A DNA stretch of 64,000 nucleotides from Oscillospiraceae bacterium (lineage in GTDB: Bacteria > Bacillota > Clostridia > Oscillospirales > Ruminococcaceae): the NCBI GenBank assembly GCA_018110905.1, contig JAGBAZ010000055.1, positions 1 to 64,000 of the forward strand, written 5' to 3'. The notes under the pieces were generated by a model. It saw nothing but the letters and a program-made list of their open reading frames with translations, was not told the DNA's origin and did no database searches. A program made the translations under genes and the position numbers. Within the stretch, counting starts at the first letter, position 1, and every line of letters starts with the position of its first letter. This document shows positions 1,730 through 54,647 of this stretch, in pieces.

Positions 1730-3058
1730 ATGAAAAAAGCATTATCTCTTATTCTTGCCGTAATAATGGCGCTTTCCTGCTGTGTATCCGCTTTTGCAGC
1801 AACAAAATACCAGCCTTCTTTTGAAATAAATTGCGAATCTGTTTATCTTGCGGACGAAAACGGAAACGTTCTTTTTGAACAGAATCCCGAACAGCGTATG
1901 TATCCCGCAGAGCTTGTTCAGATCATGACAGCTATTGTTGTAATCGAAAACATCGAAGCTGTCGGCGGATGGGAAGCCGAAGCTGCTTATGAAATGAGCA
2001 CCCAGAACTTTCTTTACGAAAACCGTCACGGCGGAATCATTTCCACCGGTATGCTTTCCGGAAACGTCTTTACTGCGGACGAACTTTTCCATTCGATGGT
2101 AATCGCTTCCGGTTACGACGCAGCAATGACACTTGCAAAACTCATCGCGGGAAGTCAGGACGCTTTTGTTGAACTTATGAATCAAAAAGCGGCGGAACTC
2201 GGCGCACGCGATACAAACTTCACAAACTGCCACGGTCTTCATGATACTGCAAACTATACAACCGCTTACGATATGTATCTTATATCCAAATATGCAATGG
2301 GGCTTGATAAATTCAAAGAAACCGTTGCAAAAACTTCCTATACCTGTGAGGAAAGCGATACCCATAAAAAACTTGTCTGGAATACCAACAACGGTCTTGT
2401 TGCAAGCGGAAATATTCATTATTACTCCCCTGTTACCGGAATAAAATCCGGCTACAGTGCCGAAGTTGGAAGAAACGTTTCCTCTTACGCCGAATATGAA
2501 GGTTTTTCCTATTACCAGGTAAACATGGGAGCACCTTTTGAACTTGACGAAGGTTACAACCTTGCTCTTTATGATGCAAAACAGCTTTACAACTGGGCTT
2601 TTACTGAATTTGAAGTAAAAACCATTGTTGAATCCGGCTCCCAGATCGGTGAAGTACCCCTTGAACTTGCATGGCAGAAAGACCATCTTAAACTTATGAT
2701 CGGTGAAACATACCGCGCTCTTCTTCCTATTGATATCGATATTTCTTCCATTGTATATGAACCCAATCTTCCCGAATCCGTTGAAGCACCGATTGAAAAA
2801 GGTGAAAAAATCGGAACCCTTGATCTTGTCCACTCCGGTGAAGTTATCGGAACCGTTCCCCTTGTTTCCATGGAAGATGTTGAACAGAGCGAGCTTTTAA
2901 GCGGTCTTAAAAACTTTTCCGATATGACCCGTTCATTCTGGTTCAAATTTATTGTGATTGTTCTCTTCGTTCTTGTTGCTCTTTATATTGCTCTTATGAT
3001 TATCAGAAATTACAACAAGAGAAAATACGGCAACTTTAAAAAGAGAAAACGTCTTTAA
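1730..3058 (+). CDS. D-Ala-D-Ala carboxypeptidase-like protein (S11) lacking the active site
   Basis: This 442-residue exported protein has a signal peptide (residues 1-23, ending AFA), an S11 penicillin-binding domain, a beta-rich C-terminal domain (about 290-395), and a membrane anchor near 411-432 followed by a basic tail. The fold is clear from PAxxxxIMTAxVVIE and GIKSGYS. The catalytic SxxK (normally STTK) reads ELVQ at 61-64, so both Ser and Lys are gone; SGN reads SGY at 127-129. Only the KSG triad (239-241) is kept. It should not hydrolyse or bind beta-lactam-like substrates covalently, and may be a structural or regulatory wall protein. The start follows CGGAGG. A canonical paralogue lies at 53553-54647. 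Confidence 0.85.
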   Translation: MKKALSLILAVIMALSCCVSAFAATKYQPSFEINCESVYLADENGNVLFEQNPEQRMYPAELVQIMTAIVVIENIEAVGGWEAEAAYEMSTQNFLYENRHGGIISTGMLSGNVFTADELFHSMVIASGYDAAMTLAKLIAGSQDAFVELMNQKAAELGARDTNFTNCHGLHDTANYTTAYDMYLISKYAMGLDKFKETVAKTSYTCEESDTHKKLVWNTNNGLVASGNIHYYSPVTGIKSGYSAEVGRNVSSYAEYEGFSYYQVNMGAPFELDEGYNLALYDAKQLYNWAFTEFEVKTIVESGSQIGEVPLELAWQKDHLKLMIGETYRALLPIDIDISSIVYEPNLPESVEAPIEKGEKIGTLDLVHSGEVIGTVPLVSMEDVEQSELLSGLKNFSDMTRSFWFKFIVIVLFVLVALYIALMIIRNYNKRKYGNFKKRKRL

Positions 3059-3087: not shown

Positions 3088-3116
3088 TTGACATTATAAA
3101 TCATATTGTATATAAT
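3088..3116 (+). promoter_or_regulatory. Promoter of the rplJ-rplL operon
   Basis: Perfect TTGACA and TATAAT hexamers are separated by 17 nt, as expected for a strong ribosomal protein promoter. The transcript would begin just in front of the L10 leader. Confidence 0.92.
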
Positions 3117-3121
3117 ATTAA

Positions 3122-3245
3122 CGCTGTCCAAAGACAGCAGGTGCGTTTCTGCGCTTAAACGGTCAAAATGGCCGGCCTGCCGAGGATGAGTGTTTTAATG
3201 TGATTTATTACGCTCCTTCCACGGCTCGCGGAGGGAGCGTTTTTG
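3122..3245 (+). ncRNA. Ribosomal protein L10 leader
   Basis: The region between promoter and rplJ contains a TGTC..GACA stem, GCAGGTGCG, a GGCCGGCCTGCCGAGGATGA block and a final GC-rich hairpin. This matches the Firmicute L10 leader, to which L10 or the L10-L12 complex binds to reduce its own synthesis. The last hairpin (3210-3245, arms ACGCTCC and GGAGCGT, then T5) is an intrinsic terminator, so control is probably by attenuation. Confidence 0.87.
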
Positions 3246-3293
3246 TTTATACAAATTCAGCTCCCATCACAAAGCAGGAGGTGAATTTTTAAA

Positions 3294-3815
3294 ATGGCCA
3301 GTGAAAAAATCTTGCAAGCGAAAAAAGAAGCTGTTGCAGAGCTCGTTGAAAAGCTTAAAGTTGCAAAATCCGGTGTTCTCGTAGACTACGTCGGTATCAA
3401 CGTTGCTGACGATACAAAACTTCGTCGCGAACTCCGTGAAGCAGGTGTTGAATACACCGTAATCAAAAACTCCATTCTTCGTTTCGCAGCTAAGGAAGCA
3501 GGTTACGGCGAACTCGACGCTTTCCTTTCCGGAAGCACCGCTCTCGCTCTTTCCAACGACGATCCTGTCGCTCCCGCAAAAATCCTTGGCAAATTTGCAG
3601 AAGGTTCCAACGGTAAATTCTCTCTTAAAGCAGGTTTTGTTGAAGGCGAAGTTCTTGACGAAGCAAAAGTTATCGAACTTTCCAAAACTCCCAGCAAAGA
3701 AGAGATCCTTACCATGCTCGTTATCGCTCTTTCCAGCCCCATCAAAGGCATTGCTGTTGCGCTTGACAAATATGTCGAGAAAGAAAACGGCGGAAATGAC
3801 GGCGAAGCAGCATAA
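3294..3815 (+). CDS. rplJ: 50S ribosomal protein L10
   Basis: L10 anchors the L7/L12 stalk to 23S rRNA. The protein (173 residues, usual length) begins MASEKILQAKKEAVAELVE and has the RNA-binding N-terminal domain with YTVIKNSILRFAAKEAG, and a C-terminal helix that binds L12 dimers. The ribosome binding site GGAGGTGA precedes the ATG. It is first in a two-gene operon with rplL 72 nt downstream and is preceded by an L10 leader. Codons are strongly biased, as for a highly expressed gene. Confidence 0.97.
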   Translation: MASEKILQAKKEAVAELVEKLKVAKSGVLVDYVGINVADDTKLRRELREAGVEYTVIKNSILRFAAKEAGYGELDAFLSGSTALALSNDDPVAPAKILGKFAEGSNGKFSLKAGFVEGEVLDEAKVIELSKTPSKEEILTMLVIALSSPIKGIAVALDKYVEKENGGNDGEAA

Positions 3816-3887: not shown

Positions 3888-4265
3888 ATGGCTTCTGAAA
3901 AAATCCAGAACATTCTCGAAGAGATCAAAGCTCTTACTCTTCTCGAAGCAAACGAACTCAAAAACGCAATCTGCGAGGAATTCGGCGTTTCCGCTGATGC
4001 TCCCGTAATGGTAGCTGGCGCTGCAGCTGGTGCTGCTCCTGCTGCTGCAACCAAAGACAGCTGGGACGTTGTTCTCACCGGCGCTGGCGAAACCAAAATG
4101 GCTGTTATCAAAGCAGTTAAAGAAATCACCGGTCTTGGCCTTAAAGAATCCAAAGAAATCGTTGACGGCTGCCCCAAAGCAGTTAAAGAAGGCGTTTCTG
4201 AATCTGAAGCTGAAGAAATCAAAAAGAAACTCGAAGAAGCAGGCGCTTCTGTTGAAGTTAAATAA
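3888..4265 (+). CDS. rplL: 50S ribosomal protein L7/L12
   Basis: The acidic stalk protein recruits translation GTPases to the ribosome. At 125 residues it has an N-terminal dimerisation helix pair, an Ala-rich hinge (about 42-54) and the C-terminal domain with the factor-binding stretch [25 protein letters not shown] lies upstream of the ATG. Together with rplJ it forms the L10-L12 operon and is followed by a strong terminator. The fused nuclease-GTPase at 7426-10026 is the kind of factor that would contact this stalk. Confidence 0.97.
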
Positions 4266-5162: not shown

Positions 5163-6758
5163 TCAATCTTCACTCGTCCGGATTTTGCAGATTTCCATCC
5201 AGTAATGTTCTTCTTCGCCGAGAAGAACGCTTGTGATTCCGTTTTGAAGGTCAAATCCAAAATTGTTATAAACGATCTCGATTTCATCGGCACCCGAAAC
5301 AGAAGCCGTCTGTTTCGTAATATTAAGGTTTGTTCCGAGTTTTGTCACCATATCAAAACCTTCCATATCCTTTTCGCGCCTTTTTCCGACATAATCATAA
5401 CTTGCTTCCCGAAGGGTTTTTGTTCCGATTTCAACCGTTTTACCGGCGGGAACGGTTACCTCAAAAGTAACATACAGAACACGGCTTACGTAACCGGTTT
5501 CGATTATTACGTCGTCGAGCCTTCCTCTGCCGTATCTTTCAGCAGGGTCTTTCGAAAGCTGACCGTGGGCATACATAAATTCCGCAACGTATCCGAGATA
5601 TTCCTCGTTCGAAATCAAACTGCGAACAGTCGGTTCATCATCAAAATAGTGAGATTCATAATCTCCGGAAGAAATTATTTCATAAATCACTTCACCAAGG
5701 GTGCTTTCATATTCTTCTGAAAGAATACTGAAAGAATCCGTTTCTTCCCTTTTATCCCAGGAACCTTTCGATTCTCCCGCAACGGTTTTTACGCTGATAT
5801 TATTGAGAGCCTCGCCCATAACGATTACATAAATCGGGTGATTTTCAAAATCCGGATTAAAACTTTTCGGAATATAGGAACCGGCTTTTGCCCAGCCTTC
5901 CTCCGAGTTCCAGCTCATGGAGTTGAAACCATAAAAATATACGCAGGTTTTTTCGGTATCATAATCAAAAGTGACTATCATATCCGGATTGTCGATTTCA
6001 TCAAATTCCTCCATCGGCACATTATATTCAATTTCAAAGGAATAAACTTTTACCGGCTGATCCATTTTTGGATTTTCGGCAAATGCATTTTCAAGATATT
6101 CTCCGCTTTCTAAAAGAGTTTTATATTCGTGCCAGGATTCAAGACTGCTGAGGTTAAGTCTTTCAACTTCGCTTTTTTCGCCCCGTGCGGAAGCAAAACC
6201 GCCGCTGTAAGGTCCTATTTTAAGTTCGGTTTCGGCCTCTTTTCCGTCAACGGTGATTTGCGGAATTCTTGAAAGGGCGGTGCTTATATTTCCCGCAAAA
6301 GGATAAACCGCGGTAAAAGTTTTATCTTCATCGGTCATATTGGTCACGGTATAATTATCACTGATTACCGCATCGTTTTTCCAGGCATCGTAATAGACCG
6401 TTTCGCCGTTGCCATCCTCATAGCTTTCTTTATAAGTGTAATAGGGGGTAAAATCAAAATTTATACTGCGCTCAAAAGAAAGTCCATCTGTGTTTTCCAA
6501 CGCGGTAAGCGGAAATGCAGGGCCTGCATAACTCATATAATTTTCTCCCGGTTCCCGGTTTGTTCCGCCTCCTGCGGAAGCACCAAGACCTCCGTTATTA
6601 ACAATACCCACGGCTATTGCAATTACAAAACAGGCGGCAGCTCCGCCTGCCCAGCGCCAAAAATGTTTTTTTCCAAAACGAATTTTTTCTGTCTTTGCTT
6701 CATCGATATATTTATCTTCAATTTCCGTTAATGCTTCAAAAAATTTTTCGCTTTTCAT
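5163..6758 (-). CDS. Probable membrane anti-sigma factor, large form
   Basis: The 531-residue protein has a cytoplasmic N-terminus of about 45 residues, one membrane segment (about 32-51, GGAAACFVIAIAVGIV), a Gly-rich linker and a large extracytoplasmic part with no motif I can name. Its start overlaps the end of the ECF sigma gene by 4 nt (ATGA), the classic layout of a sigma factor and its membrane-bound antagonist. A smaller protein with the same layout follows the second sigma gene at 18779. Function is inferred from position and topology only; it could be a sensor for envelope stress. Confidence 0.65.
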   Translation of the reverse strand: MKSEKFFEALTEIEDKYIDEAKTEKIRFGKKHFWRWAGGAAACFVIAIAVGIVNNGGLGASAGGGTNREPGENYMSYAGPAFPLTALENTDGLSFERSINFDFTPYYTYKESYEDGNGETVYYDAWKNDAVISDNYTVTNMTDEDKTFTAVYPFAGNISTALSRIPQITVDGKEAETELKIGPYSGGFASARGEKSEVERLNLSSLESWHEYKTLLESGEYLENAFAENPKMDQPVKVYSFEIEYNVPMEEFDEIDNPDMIVTFDYDTEKTCVYFYGFNSMSWNSEEGWAKAGSYIPKSFNPDFENHPIYVIVMGEALNNISVKTVAGESKGSWDKREETDSFSILSEEYESTLGEVIYEIISSGDYESHYFDDEPTVRSLISNEEYLGYVAEFMYAHGQLSKDPAERYGRGRLDDVIIETGYVSRVLYVTFEVTVPAGKTVEIGTKTLREASYDYVGKRREKDMEGFDMVTKLGTNLNITKQTASVSGADEIEIVYNNFGFDLQNGITSVLLGEEEHYWMEICKIRTSED

Positions 6759-7309
6759 AAGGCAATTCCCTCCTTTTCAAGAAATTCCTTAAGATTTTTC
6801 CGAAGACGGAACATTTTTGAGGAAAGTTTTTTCGGCGGAATTTTCGATTTTTCCGAAAGTTCCGCAACGGAATCGCCGAACCAATATCTCCGAAGGAAAA
6901 GAATCCTTTCCTCTTTTTCAAGAGTTCCGAGCCAGCGGTTTATTGCGGCGGTTATTTCTTTGCTTTCGCTTTCCGCTTCAACGTTTTCAGAAGAAGGAAT
7001 GCATTCCTCAAGTTCCGAAAGCATTGTTTCAATTCCGCTTCGCTTTTGCGCCCTGTTTTTTCTCCAGCGGCTTATTGAAAGATTGCGGGTGATTTTTCCA
7101 AGCCAGGCGCCGAGAAAATCCGGTTTTTCCGGCGGAATTTTGTCCCAGGCTTTTCCGTAAGTATCGTTCACCGTTTCTTCGCTGTCTTCACGGTTTGAAA
7201 GAACGTTCATTGCTATTGAAAAAAGCATTTTTCCGAATTTGCGTTCGGTTTCCGCAACGGCAAGTTCGTTTCTTGCGTTATAAAGTTCGATTATTTTTGC
7301 GTCCTCCAA
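6755..7309 (-). CDS. ECF-type RNA polymerase sigma factor
   Basis: The protein (about 184 residues) contains sigma region 2 (ERKFGKMLFSIAMNVLSNRE, with VNDTYGKAWDKI) and region 4 (RRYWFGDSVAELSEKSKIP, then SKMFRLRKNLKEFLEKEG). There are two adjacent TTG codons; the second (7309) is preferred because it lies 8 nt after GGAGG and matches the MED start of the paralogue at 18222. The product should direct polymerase to a small regulon that probably includes its own operon, since the upstream region shares a motif with that of the paralogue. Confidence 0.88.
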   Translation of the reverse strand: MEDAKIIELYNARNELAVAETERKFGKMLFSIAMNVLSNREDSEETVNDTYGKAWDKIPPEKPDFLGAWLGKITRNLSISRWRKNRAQKRSGIETMLSELEECIPSSENVEAESESKEITAAINRWLGTLEKEERILFLRRYWFGDSVAELSEKSKIPPKKLSSKMFRLRKNLKEFLEKEGIAL

Positions 7310-7349
7310 CAATAATTCCTCCTTTCGGTTTTGATTTTTTAATGAGGGC

Positions 7350-7425: not shown

Positions 7426-10026
7426 TTATGTCAGCTTATCAATGTTATCAAATGGGCGGTAAAAACTTTTTCTTCCGTAAGTTTCTATCGTATTTTGGAT
7501 CTGTTTGTTTATAAACTCAACTTCCTCGCGGAGTTCATTCGCGGACATGCGCAAAACACCGCTACGCAAAGCGGCAACCTGGATAAGGTTATCGGAAGTT
7601 GCAACCTTTACGTTATAATTTTTTCCGATATCCTGACAAAGTTTTTCGATATACATATCTCCGGTTTCGTTTTCCTTGGTATAGGCAACGTGGATTTCGT
7701 GATAATCGAATTTTTCGCCGTAGTTTCCTTTAACTTTATATCCGTCGAAAACCAGAACCAGTTCACATTTTGTATATCCGCGATAGTTCGCAAGGATATC
7801 CATAAGGATATGTCGGGCTGCATCGAGATTTTCGGAAGCGAGTTTTTTAAGACCTTCCCAGGCAAAGATTATATTATAGCCGTCAACGATCAAATAATCT
7901 TTTTTCTTTGCCGCAGGCGCTTTATATTCTTTCGGGCGGTCCATAACCGCTTCGGTATATTGCTTTCTGCGGATAGGGCCGAATTCCCTTTCCATTATGG
8001 CTTCGAGTTCTTTTTCGTCGATGCTGAAATTCCTGCGGAAAACTTTTACGTTCGGAATAAGCGGAATTCCGTTTTCAATGCTGAAATCGATTCCGCTGGA
8101 AACGTGCATATGTTTTTCAACTTCGTTCCATTTTACGTTTATTCCTGCGCCATGGGAACAGAAAACAGAATCCGGACTGTTGAGAACATCTGATTCCGGG
8201 TCATATCCGAATTCCGTAATAACCTCTTCGGTATTATGGCAAGGAGCGTAGCCATCGGAAAAACAGACCAGTTTTCCCCTTCCGTGGGTATAAGAAAGGA
8301 CATCTTTAAGATAGGAGCGCATTGTTGAAACAGGCGCACGGCCTGAAATTTCGACCATATCTCCTTTTGTTTCCGGATAACCGAATGTTCCGTTCATCTC
8401 TCTGATATCGTTTATGGCGCGTCCTATCTGCTCCGAAGGTATTTCAAGACGGAAAGCATAATATGGTTCAAGAAGAACGTTTTTCGCTTTCATAAGTCCC
8501 TGGCGTACTGCACGGTACGTTGCCTGGCGGAAATCACCGCCTTCGGTGTGTTTTATATGAGCACGGCCCGCAACAAGGGTTATTTTAACGTCCGTAAGAG
8601 GCGAACCGGTGAGCACACCGAGGTGTGTTTTTTCCGCAAGGTGGGTCAGAACAAGCCTTTGCCAGTTGCGGTCAAGGGTATCTTCGCTGCAGCGGGTTTC
8701 GAGCAGAATTCCGCTTCCGGGTTCGCCCGGTTCGATTACAAGATGAACTTCCGCATAATGGCGGAGAGGTTCAAAATGACCGACTCCCTCCACCGGTTCG
8801 GCAATTGTTTCACGATAGATGATTTTTCCTTCATCAAGACCGATTTCCGTTCCGAAACGTTCAGAAACCATGCTTTTGAGTATCTCTTCCTGAACTTCAC
8901 CCATAAGACTTGCGTAAATTCCGCCGAGCTGTTCGTTCCATTCAATATGGAGCTGGGGGTCTTCGTCCTCAAGCTGCTTAAGCTTCGGCAAAAACTGCGC
9001 AGGAGAAATTCCTTCCGGAAGTTTTATACGGTAAGTCAGAACAGGCTCCAGAATCGGCTCAAATCCGGCTTCTTCAAAGCCAAGACCCTGGCCGGGAAAG
9101 GTTTTTGAAAGCCCGAGAACCGCAACAACGCTTCCCTGCTTTGCCTCATCGACCGGTTCAAACTTCGCACCAGAATATATTCGGAGTATATTTGCTTTTT
9201 CCTCAATCGGTTCGGAAGAATCTTTCGGCTTATATGAAACGACCGAGCGAACTTTGAAACTTCCACCGGTGATCTTCATAAAAGTCATGCGGTTTCCCTG
9301 AATATCCCTTGAAATTTTGAAAACCTTTGCGCCAAAATCCGCCTTTTGTTCCGGTTCATCAGCAAATTCTTCAAATCCTTCAATAAATTCCGAAACTCCG
9401 TAAAGGCGCAGAGCCGAACCGAAAAAGCAAGGAAAAACCTTTCGTTCTTTTATGAGCACGGCAATTTCTTCGGTGCTCAAGCTTCCGTTTTCCATATATT
9501 TTTCCATGCTCAGCTCATTGGTAAGGGCTATGTTTTCATAAAAATCCTCGTCTTTTTCGGAAAAATCAACACAGTTTCCGGAAAGATTTTCCCGAAGATT
9601 TTTCATTATCATGGATTTATCCGTATCTTCAAGGTCCATTTTGTTTATGAAAACAAAAACCGGAACGTTATAGCGGGAAAGAAGTTTCCATAATGTTTCG
9701 GTATGGACCTGAACGCCGTCCCTTGCGCTTATTACAAGAACAGCATAATCCATAACCTGCATGGTGCGTTCGGTTTCGGAAGAAAAATCGACGTGACCGG
9801 GGGTATCGAGAAGGGTTATTTCCATATTTTCGGTTTTAATAACCGCCTGTTTTGAAAAAATGGTAATTCCGCGCTCGCGTTCAATTTCGTTGTTATCGAG
9901 AAAAGCGTTTTTGTTATCAACTCTTCCGAGCTTTTTTATTTTTCCGGTGGAATATAAAAGCGCTTCGGAAAGAGTCGTCTTTCCTGCGTCAACATGCGCA
10001 AGAATTCCGACAACCAGTTTTTTCAT
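7426..10026 (-). CDS. TetM/EF-G-like ribosomal GTPase fused to a Rae1/YacP-like NYN nuclease
   Basis: The 866-residue protein starts at the ATG at 10026 after GGGGG; the open frame runs on to 10089, but that part is promoter. Residues 1 to about 690 follow the TetM/EF-G plan: P-loop AHVDAGKT (10-17), RGIT (52-55), DTPGH (74-78), NKMD (128-131), then domains II-V. Residues 710-845 match YacP/Rae1: VDGYNII, LVLVFDGY, TKENETGD, VATSDN, and SANEL, with the acidic catalytic set kept. Rae1 of Bacillus cuts mRNA in the ribosomal A site. TetM-type factors enter the same site. The SPVS-like loop of TetM that displaces tetracycline is not recognisable (here HIKHTEGGDF), so drug resistance is doubtful. 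Likely role: a ribosome-bound surveillance or mRNA-cleavage factor (inference). It is a single-gene unit with its own promoter and terminator. Confidence 0.9.
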   Translation of the reverse strand: MKKLVVGILAHVDAGKTTLSEALLYSTGKIKKLGRVDNKNAFLDNNEIERERGITIFSKQAVIKTENMEITLLDTPGHVDFSSETERTMQVMDYAVLVISARDGVQVHTETLWKLLSRYNVPVFVFINKMDLEDTDKSMIMKNLRENLSGNCVDFSEKDEDFYENIALTNELSMEKYMENGSLSTEEIAVLIKERKVFPCFFGSALRLYGVSEFIEGFEEFADEPEQKADFGAKVFKISRDIQGNRMTFMKITGGSFKVRSVVSYKPKDSSEPIEEKANILRIYSGAKFEPVDEAKQGSVVAVLGLSKTFPGQGLGFEEAGFEPILEPVLTYRIKLPEGISPAQFLPKLKQLEDEDPQLHIEWNEQLGGIYASLMGEVQEEILKSMVSERFGTEIGLDEGKIIYRETIAEPVEGVGHFEPLRHYAEVHLVIEPGEPGSGILLETRCSEDTLDRNWQRLVLTHLAEKTHLGVLTGSPLTDVKITLVAGRAHIKHTEGGDFRQATYRAVRQGLMKAKNVLLEPYYAFRLEIPSEQIGRAINDIREMNGTFGYPETKGDMVEISGRAPVSTMRSYLKDVLSYTHGRGKLVCFSDGYAPCHNTEEVITEFGYDPESDVLNSPDSVFCSHGAGINVKWNEVEKHMHVSSGIDFSIENGIPLIPNVKVFRRNFSIDEKELEAIMEREFGPIRRKQYTEAVMDRPKEYKAPAAKKKDYLIVDGYNIIFAWEGLKKLASENLDAARHILMDILANYRGYTKCELVLVFDGYKVKGNYGEKFDYHEIHVAYTKENETGDMYIEKLCQDIGKNYNVKVATSDNLIQVAALRSGVLRMSANELREEVEFINKQIQNTIETYGRKSFYRPFDNIDKLT

Positions 10027-10060
10027 AGAATAACCCCCTTTCTTTAAAATTATAAACTTT

Positions 10061-10089
10061 ATTATACCACAACACGGCATCAAAAGCAA
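10061..10089 (-). promoter_or_regulatory. Promoter of the GTPase-NYN gene
   Basis: TTGCTT and a perfect TATAAT are spaced by 17 nt on the minus strand, 35 nt before the ATG at 10026. It abuts the upstream terminator hairpin at 10093-10111. Confidence 0.82.
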
Positions 10090-53552: not shown

Positions 53553-54647
53553 CTAAAAAATATCTTTTATATTATTCCAAAAACCTTTGTTTTCGGAAAT
53601 TGTTCCAACAATATTTTGCGCAACAAGCGGAGTTTCCGCAACAAGCATATCATCAAGATAGAACAGTGCTTTTCCGACGATATCGCCTTTTTCAACCGGC
53701 GCAAAAACAAAAGGCGGCTTGCTTATAACGGTTTTTATCTTTTCCGTTTCACCTTCAAAAAGAGAAGCTGAAACTTTTTTCGGAACAGCAAGAACCGTTT
53801 TTTCCGTTCCGCCGCAAACCGGAATTTCGATTTTCTCCGCAGGATTTTCGAGATTCACGGATTTAAGTTTTCCAAAATATTCTTCATAAAGCGCCGTATG
53901 ATAATTCCAGTCATCCGGGCAGCCAAGGGTCACACATATCAGCGAAACCCCTTCCCTTTCAGCTGAGGAAACAAGACAGCGCCCTGCTTTTTTTGTGAAT
54001 CCGGTTTTAACTCCGGTTGCACCATTTAAGGTTTTCAAAAGCCTGTTGTGGTTCGTTATAACTCTTGAATATGGCGGATTCCCGTATTCGACACGCAAAG
54101 TTTTTTCGCGACATATTGCAGCAAAATCCGGATTTTGCAAAGCATTTTTTGCGAGAATCGCCATATCGTAAGCAGTTGAAAAATGGTTTTTTCCGTCAAG
54201 ACCCGATGGCGTTTCGAAAGAGGTGCTTTCCAACCCCATCTCTTTTGCTCTTTTGTTCATAAGCTCTGCAAAATTTTCCACAGAACCGGAGATTTTTATT
54301 GCCGCGGCGTTTGCGGCATCGTTTCCGGAAGCAAGAAGCATTCCTTTTGCAAGAGTCCGGAGCGTAACCGAATCTCCCGGCAAAAGACCCATCGAAGAGC
54401 CTTCAACGGTTACTGCCGCCTTGGTTACGGAAAAAAACTCATCAATATTTTCTTCCTCAAGGGCAATGAGCGCAGTCATAATTTTTGTCGTGCTTGCCAT
54501 GGGAAGTTTTTCATCTTTATTATGTTCAAAAAACACTCTGCCGTTTTCTCCATCAATGAGCACGGCACCTTTCGGAACAGAAAAGCATTTCGTGCTCAAA
54601 GAAAAGCAAACGAGCACGGCAAAAAACAGTGCTGTTATTTTACGCAA
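53553..54647 (-). CDS. dacF: D-alanyl-D-alanine carboxypeptidase (S11), canonical
   Basis: The 364-residue exported protein has a signal peptide (about 1-23) and the full active site: STTK at 52-55, SGN at 107-109 and KTG at 214-216, with TPSGLDGKNHFSTAYDMAIL between. It trims pentapeptide stems in the cell wall. DacF and DacB act in sporulation or vegetative wall maturation; here the neighbourhood (scpAB, ytfJ) suggests the DacF type. The start is TTG at 54647 after GGGGTGA, which lies inside a hairpin (see 54655-54678). It shows what is missing in the paralogue at 1730-3058. Confidence 0.92.
   Translation of the reverse strand: MRKITALFFAVLVCFSLSTKCFSVPKGAVLIDGENGRVFFEHNKDEKLPMASTTKIMTALIALEEENIDEFFSVTKAAVTVEGSSMGLLPGDSVTLRTLAKGMLLASGNDAANAAAIKISGSVENFAELMNKRAKEMGLESTSFETPSGLDGKNHFSTAYDMAILAKNALQNPDFAAICREKTLRVEYGNPPYSRVITNHNRLLKTLNGATGVKTGFTKKAGRCLVSSAEREGVSLICVTLGCPDDWNYHTALYEEYFGKLKSVNLENPAEKIEIPVCGGTEKTVLAVPKKVSASLFEGETEKIKTVISKPPFVFAPVEKGDIVGKALFYLDDMLVAETPLVAQNIVGTISENKGFWNNIKDIF

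Follow-up and report, generated by a model that had tools for sequence, protein, structure and literature searches.

An S11 carboxypeptidase homologue lacking the catalytic Ser and Lys, and its degenerate phosphoesterase-like neighbour, in Ruminococcaceae

The window analysed here is a stretch of 64,000 nucleotides from an Oscillospiraceae bacterium of the family Ruminococcaceae (assembly GCA_018110905.1, contig JAGBAZ010000055.1, positions 1 to 64,000). Near its left end, on the forward strand at positions 1730 to 3058, lies a gene for a homologue of the D,D-carboxypeptidases of peptidase family S11 that has lost its catalytic residues, and that we call pseudo-S11 (or pseudo-PBP5). The open reading frame (ORF) begins with an ATG preceded by GGAGG and codes for 442 amino acids, which match the Pfam models Peptidase_S11 (2.1e-40) and PBP5_C (9.4e-10; residues 294-386, positions 2609-2887). 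The first 24 residues, ending in SAFAA (1730-1801), have the appearance of a signal peptide by eye and include a helix at residues 2-19 of the predicted structure. A long helix at residues 403-441 of the same model (2936-3055), judged by eye to span the membrane, ends in a basic tail; the last 25 residues carry nine Lys or Arg and no Asp or Glu. An earlier note on this DNA had described an S11 fold with a signal peptide and a C-terminal anchor, and all three features are borne out by these data.

The active site is where the protein departs from its family. Alignment places ELVQ at motif I (residues 61-64, positions 1910-1921) in place of SxxK, SGY at motif II (residues 127-129, positions 2108-2116) in place of SxN, and KSG at motif III (residues 239-241, positions 2444-2452). 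Thus, the nucleophilic Ser has become E61, the Lys Q64 and the Asn of SxN Y129. The segment PAELVQIMT aligns with PASLTKMMT of the solved S11 protein 5tr7, and the other three S11 proteins of the same genome read PASITK, MASTTK and PASITK where the window protein reads PAELVQ. Two of these three have all motifs intact and the third is a KLG-type protein. The one encoded at 53553-54647 of the window, DacF, carries the canonical set STTK/SGN/KTG and serves, as the earlier note proposed, as an internal control. That note had also raised an alternative SxxK motif as a possibility. A scan for S/T/C-x-x-K found TLAK, TVAK, THKK, TGIK and SGLK in the window protein, none of them at the motif I position; the only Ser-type match, SGLK (residues 391-394), lies beside the membrane helix and outside the catalytic domain. 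The KLG-type protein (G000:C60; L003, L143) is a second odd S11 of this genome with a C-terminal helix-like end. Together with 11 orthologues in the genus (L144-L154) it keeps SITK and SAN intact, and KLG replaces KTG in all 12 examined.

The fold itself is predicted to be retained. An AlphaFold2 model built with 40 sequences has a mean predicted local distance difference test score (pLDDT) of 90.1 and a predicted template modelling score (pTM) of 0.78. Its best match among solved structures is the Streptomyces K15 DD-transpeptidase (PDB 1es5, 1skf; Z 36.1, root-mean-square deviation (rmsd) 1.5 Å over 249 residues), followed by E. coli PBP5 (Z 35.8). With the PF00768 and PF07943 proteins of the S11/PBP5 family the window protein therefore shares fold, domain order, signal peptide, C-terminal membrane attachment and the KxG motif, whereas it lacks SxxK and the Asn of SxN. 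Its long C-terminal helix and basic tail also set it apart from the DacA-type and DacF proteins of its own genome, which stop soon after PBP5_C. K15 has STTK at motif I and SGC at motif II (PMC12073871). K15 thus retains the Ser and Lys of SxxK, whereas the window protein retains neither, and SGY matches neither SxN nor the K15-like SxC.

The changes are fixed in the genus. The search covered 61 genomes, of which 15 are from the genus of the window (its own genome included), and 14 of these carry an orthologue; the genome without one is only 73% complete. The 13 other orthologues are 63-95% identical to the window protein, and the 14 genus copies form a separate clade, which answers the question of whether the ELVQ type stands on its own. 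In every one of them the reading frame is open and E61, Q64, S127, Y129, K239 and G241 do not vary, such that chance or an assembly error can be ruled out as the source of ELVQ and SGY. The middle residue of motif III is Ser in 11 copies, Ala in two and Thr in one.

The gene is also under strong constraint. Ratios of nonsynonymous to synonymous substitution rates (dN/dS) were computed for nine genomes carrying all five genes compared, giving 36 pairs that are not independent of one another. The median is 0.072 for pseudo-S11 and 0.078 for a divergently encoded phosphoesterase-like neighbour described below, versus 0.103, 0.121 and 0.189 for the DacA-type, KLG-type and DacF paralogues, all of which have an intact SxxK. 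The nonsynonymous rate of pseudo-S11 is below that of these three paralogues in 35, 36 and 33 of the 36 pairs, respectively, and below that of the neighbour in 28. Purifying selection on pseudo-S11 is stronger than on the three SxxK-intact S11 paralogues. This bears on the possibility that the gene is a decaying relic, whose use is lost and which is on its way to becoming a pseudogene. Three active-site positions have changed and the genome still has two S11 genes whose motifs are all intact, as such decay might have it, but the open frame in all 14 copies and a dN/dS below that of the SxxK-intact paralogues make this explanation barely credible, and pseudogene status can be ruled out on the ratio. 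With its motif lost, its predicted fold kept and its gene maintained by selection, the protein has the characteristics of an S11 pseudoenzyme. Catalytic death is strongly supported by these sequence comparisons, and the membrane-anchored pseudo-penicillin-binding protein (pseudo-PBP) suggested by the earlier note is supported by the sequence, model and selection data alike.

Loss of SxxK is not confined to this genus. A careful tree of 83 S11 sequences, computed with the motif columns removed, includes 29 without SxxK (five of the 14 genus copies among them) and 52 with SxxK intact, a number that contains three repeat copies (L023/L223, L024/L218 and L066/L170). Two further sequences, L167 and L171, also read as changed, which would make 31 of 83 and five changes in all; their motif alignment is doubtful and they were left out of both sets. 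The genus of the window groups with genome G020 (support 98/74), beside Merdimmobilis hominis, which has SLTK/SAN/KTG. Sequence L030 (genome G058) stands apart on a long branch at an unresolved fork, and a third origin is therefore less sure. A clade of 22 sequences that includes Ruminococcus flavefaciens (support 100/99) consists entirely of SxxK-less proteins, and its persistence is a further point against the gene being a relic. A single origin of all 29 is ruled out (p-AU 1.25e-6, or 6.35e-4 without L030). The tree thus indicates that SxxK was lost at least twice, and probably three times, among these relatives.

The replacements hint at an order of events. The Lys of SxxK is replaced by Gln in 24 of the 29 sequences, by Asn in four and by Asp in one, and because the Ser is still there in six of the 29, Lys may be the first to go in that clade. 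G020 reads ELAQ but retains SAN, which suggests that in the lineage of the window SxxK was lost before SxN. Motif II retains its Ser, and motif III its Lys, in all 29 sequences, versus 51 of 52 each in the intact set. SxC at motif II occurs in 20 of the 52 intact sequences (17 of 49 without the three repeats) as well as in K15, and for this reason it was not scored as a mark of death; loss of SxxK was the sole mark. Other odd motif sets were seen in L065 (VGH/KNG), L112 (PSGMNK) and L216 (SAS/KTA).

A pattern survey shows how far such proteins extend. Across 396 genomes of the family, P-[A/G/S/T/R]-x-[hydrophobic]-x-Q-I-M-T gave 28 matches, comprising 25 S11 genes in eight genera and three non-S11 genes; 21 matches were opened (18 S11, 3 non-S11) and the other seven are known copies from the genus of the window. 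The 25 are a lower bound, because the pattern missed the sampled genus member G012 and is blind to the PGPLVN type. The narrower pattern ELxQ matched only in the window's genome among 394 genomes of the order; the genus had no second representative in this sample, and SxxK-less proteins of other types have different letters at these positions. In a phage collection, S11 matches occur in 72 records, every one below 60% identity.

A further peculiarity of the genus is a Cys, C167 (codon at 2228-2230), directly before the His of the NxHGL stretch, which we take to lie near the cleft. C167 and H168 are invariant in the 14 genus copies, and a Cys at this position is restricted to the genus: it is found in none of the 52 intact sequences and in none of the 24 SxxK-less ones from elsewhere. 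It is conceivable that the protein of this genus is still an enzyme whose residues have migrated, with C167-H168 replacing the Ser-Lys pair. The fixity and restriction of the Cys would suit this idea; however, the pair is absent from the other SxxK-less lineages, and we consider it very improbable.

Upstream of pseudo-S11, on the reverse strand at 861-1541, lies a degenerate metallophosphoesterase-like gene. Its start was set at the ATG at 1541 because relatives begin with MIY, whereas the listed ORF begins with TTG at 1577. The product matches PF00149 above the cut-off (6.9e-6), and its predicted model resembles Dbr1 (Z 16.1 over 204-205 residues; rmsd 3.7 over 204 residues against 5k77_A), as expected for a calcineurin-like fold. 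However, GNHE reads GAHE, TH reads TY and GHxH reads GCFH, so that the GNH[ED] and GHxH motifs, whose residues are presumably metal ligands of the fold, are not preserved. Beside this gene, at 123-818 on the reverse strand, is a gene resembling the manganese efflux pump MntP (NF008546, 113.1 bits, below the cut-off of 214), a genus-level neighbour with a match in 12 of 13 genus loci.

The degeneracy extends to the S11-associated relatives of this protein. Sixty linked copies, meaning copies on the opposite strand within about 2.5 kb of an S11 gene, were compared; they include three second and mostly partial copies (L168/L191, L169/L178 and L066/L170). None of the 60 has the Asn of GNH[ED], and the first His of GHxH is missing in all 56 that are legible there. 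Both residues are also gone in five partner-family members that are non-adjacent to S11 (one of them, from G011, through contig ends), and these five form one clade with the linked copies in a quick tree (SH-aLRT 97). The five partners found in g262, a genus with six SxxK-less S11 copies, read GCHEN and GKCH. In the genus of the window the His of TH is changed to Tyr as well. Linked copies with a complete start do keep the Asp and His of GDxHG, and the Asp of the GD motif is kept as well. Thus, the S11-associated clade shares the fold and these residues with the calcineurin-like metallophosphoesterases (PF00149; Dbr1, Mre11, MPPED2), but has lost the GNH[ED] Asn and the first GHxH His. In the genus of the window, both members of the pair look dead from their motifs.

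Homologues away from S11 genes differ in this respect. Ten homologues from the same order, with no S11 gene in the stretch fetched, all have both residues (one reads GNKE), and five homologues with GNH[ED] and GHxH from the genome set of the g262 check keep both motifs (L279 being the same gene as L213). Outside the order, 149 genomes searched gave eight homologue loci from seven other genomes, none with an S11 match in the locus; GNHE is legible in six different frames, one frame has GHYH without a legible GNH, and one is partial.

The pairing is usual in the genus and also occurs beyond it. At 13 of 14 genus loci (window counted) the phosphoesterase-like gene and the S11 gene are divergent, with the former directly upstream in 12 and 1.5 kb off in G012; at the fourteenth (G011) both genes lie at contig ends. 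A divergent pair within about 2.5 kb occurs at 20 of 80 named loci, including Merdimmobilis hominis and three R. flavefaciens strains; of the remaining 60, many come from distant relatives or have little flanking sequence. For the 18 SxxK-less S11 genes outside the genus, a partner was present in the stretch available for 10; for two more it is known elsewhere (G020, at 1.4 kb) or cannot be judged at contig ends, and the g262 copies are treated below. Among 25 loci picked for having the pair, the neighbour cluster is represented at 25 and the S11 cluster at 23. Any other neighbour reaches five loci at most, counting frames above 110 amino acids and with several flanks short. Because partners of SxxK-intact S11 genes are degenerate too, the partner probably degenerated first.

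The region between the two genes may coordinate them. An extended -10 element (TGCTATAAT) at 1653-1661 on the forward strand, seen by eye and not listed by the consensus scan, is a putative promoter for the S11 gene, and TGNTATAAT is kept across the 12 of 14 genus intergenic regions that were aligned. On the reverse strand at 1637-1666, TTGATA and TATAAT separated by 18 nucleotides (11 of 12 consensus positions) form a putative promoter for the phosphoesterase-like gene. The scan listed 10 promoter-like sites in total, versus 5.0 (standard deviation 2.6) in shuffled sequence. The two putative promoters, which are consensus matches only, overlap inside the conserved block and therefore could exclude each other.

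On the other side of pseudo-S11, the ribosomal protein gene rplJ lies downstream in all 14 genus loci, and in G059 rplL and rplJ occur near the S11 locus in the opposite orientation. In the window, a promoter with 12 of 12 consensus positions (3088-3116) and a Ribosomal protein L10 leader (RF00557, 71.4 bits; 3110-3254) precede rplJ (3294-3815) and rplL (3888-4265). The median dS of the two ribosomal genes is near 0.2, versus 0.8-1.3 for the other genes compared. Four genus contigs (L118, L121, L123 and L126) end inside the first 84-120 bases of rplJ, perhaps as assembly breaks at near-identical sequence. Farther along, on the reverse strand, 5163-7312 codes for a protein with one membrane stretch by eye that adjoins an ECF sigma factor (TIGR02937, 59.8 bits, above cut-off). 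The two are likely a sigma/anti-sigma pair, of which no match was found in the genus loci L124, L125 and L127. The product of 7426-10089, also on the reverse strand, is a GTPase of translation-factor type with similarity to tetracycline ribosomal-protection proteins (NF012153; its 414.6 bits are below the cut-off of 775). The match reaches residue 590 of 867, and the C-terminal extension resembles a YacP/NYN domain by eye.

Taken together, we favor a model in which a catalytically dead D,D-carboxypeptidase has been retained for a non-catalytic task, as an envelope receptor or scaffold that binds peptide stems and works with a cytosolic pseudo-phosphoesterase, although we hold this tentatively, at somewhat short of an even chance. 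The S11 domain would be exported by way of its signal peptide and held outside the cell by the C-terminal helix. Its cleft, in which motif II still has its Ser and motif III its Lys, might bind the D-Ala ends of stems or nascent wall without cutting, and the protein could signal or scaffold the state of the wall through its basic cytosolic tail. The divergently encoded protein of phosphoesterase fold would then be a cytosolic binding partner rather than an enzyme. The pair may have served regulation while the S11 protein was still an enzyme, and cutting may then have been lost in at least two lineages, with binding left over. The fuller form of this proposal is a two-gene device of twin pseudoenzymes, in which a membrane-spanning dead carboxypeptidase reads stems outside the cell and its tail relays their state to a cytosolic dead phosphoesterase, and which arose by several independent losses of catalysis in an active carboxypeptidase whose phosphoesterase neighbour had degenerated earlier. 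This form strikes us as rather doubtful.

Several observations weigh against the receptor or scaffold model. Thirteen of the 29 SxxK-less sequences also have another residue in place of the Gly of KTG, and the third residue of SxN varies; the cleft therefore may not bind stems. The two proteins sit on opposite sides of the membrane, so that contact would be possible only via the tail. Moreover, the pairing is not obligatory. In g262 the two genes are split: no partner is found in 4.9-6.1 kb upstream of the S11 gene in the four of six genomes with such a flank, and the sixth genome, G500, shows no partner homologue at all. That g262 is simply without a partner is ruled out, given that five of its six genomes carry a degenerate one elsewhere (55-57% identity to the L074 partner), which in turn speaks for the model. 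Five more members of the partner family are non-adjacent to an S11 gene, one (in G011) only through contig ends. Finally, we take MPPED2 (PDB 3rl3-3rl5) to carry a natural change in GHxH and to retain reduced activity, and the partner therefore may not be fully dead.

A different task for a dead S11 protein has precedents among cell wall enzymes. EnvC and NlpD exemplify the degenerate LytM factors. Some LytM factors are inactive and regulate hydrolases (PMC8416486). By analogy, pseudo-S11 could bind an active S11 or another wall enzyme and adjust its activity without catalysis of its own, as a dominant-negative form or an activator, with the phosphoesterase-like neighbour merely co-regulated. 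The same genomes do carry S11 paralogues with intact motifs, and the overlapping putative promoters could co-regulate the pair. However, no surface for such a contact was found, the pairing seems to predate the loss of SxxK given that partners beside SxxK-intact S11 genes are degenerate as well, and shared promoters alone fail to explain why g262 keeps the partner after the genes have split. We regard the regulator explanation as possible but unlikely. Like degenerate LytM factors, the window protein is a relative of wall enzymes that has lost catalysis, and those factors regulate other enzymes; its fold and enzyme class are different.

Pseudo-S11 could instead act as a decoy or protective binder, covering D-Ala-D-Ala stems or retaining antibiotics outside the cell by non-covalent binding. 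It has the predicted PBP fold and keeps the Lys of KxG, and the tetracycline ribosomal-protection-like gene, itself below its curated cut-off, lies a few kb away in the genus. Elsewhere that gene is not part of the pair, and only the phosphoesterase-like gene recurs in more than five of the 25 loci. A membrane protein in ordinary amounts would also, by reasoning, be a weak sink. We consider a protective role highly improbable.

Two inactive beta-lactamase structures of the superfamily have been described (PMC12073871), and the group of 5IHV from Burkholderia ambifaria, as presented there, likewise has changed nucleophile and base positions on a kept fold. The window case differs from that group in that it is an S11 protein, is fixed in a genus and a wider clade, has repeated origins and is frequently accompanied by a partner gene. 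No account of a natural inactive S11 protein, or of an S11/phosphoesterase pair, was found among the listed titles and abstract openings of an open-access library. The new part is the repeated loss of SxxK together with the degenerate partner.

The S11 proteins are a class defined by catalysis and penicillin binding, and here catalysis has been lost throughout a genus and throughout a clade. Because the Peptidase_S11 model scores the window protein well above cut-off, SxxK-less proteins are easily annotated as carboxypeptidases. The organism of the window is a gut bacterium whose relatives also carry an SxxK-less anchored S11 copy, and the SxxK-less clade includes R. flavefaciens, a named species for which genomes of several strains exist. 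With its recurrent loss of SxxK next to a degenerate phosphoesterase, the pair lends itself to testing. If stems are indeed bound without being cut, these proteins would use the PBP fold as a receptor or scaffold at the wall.
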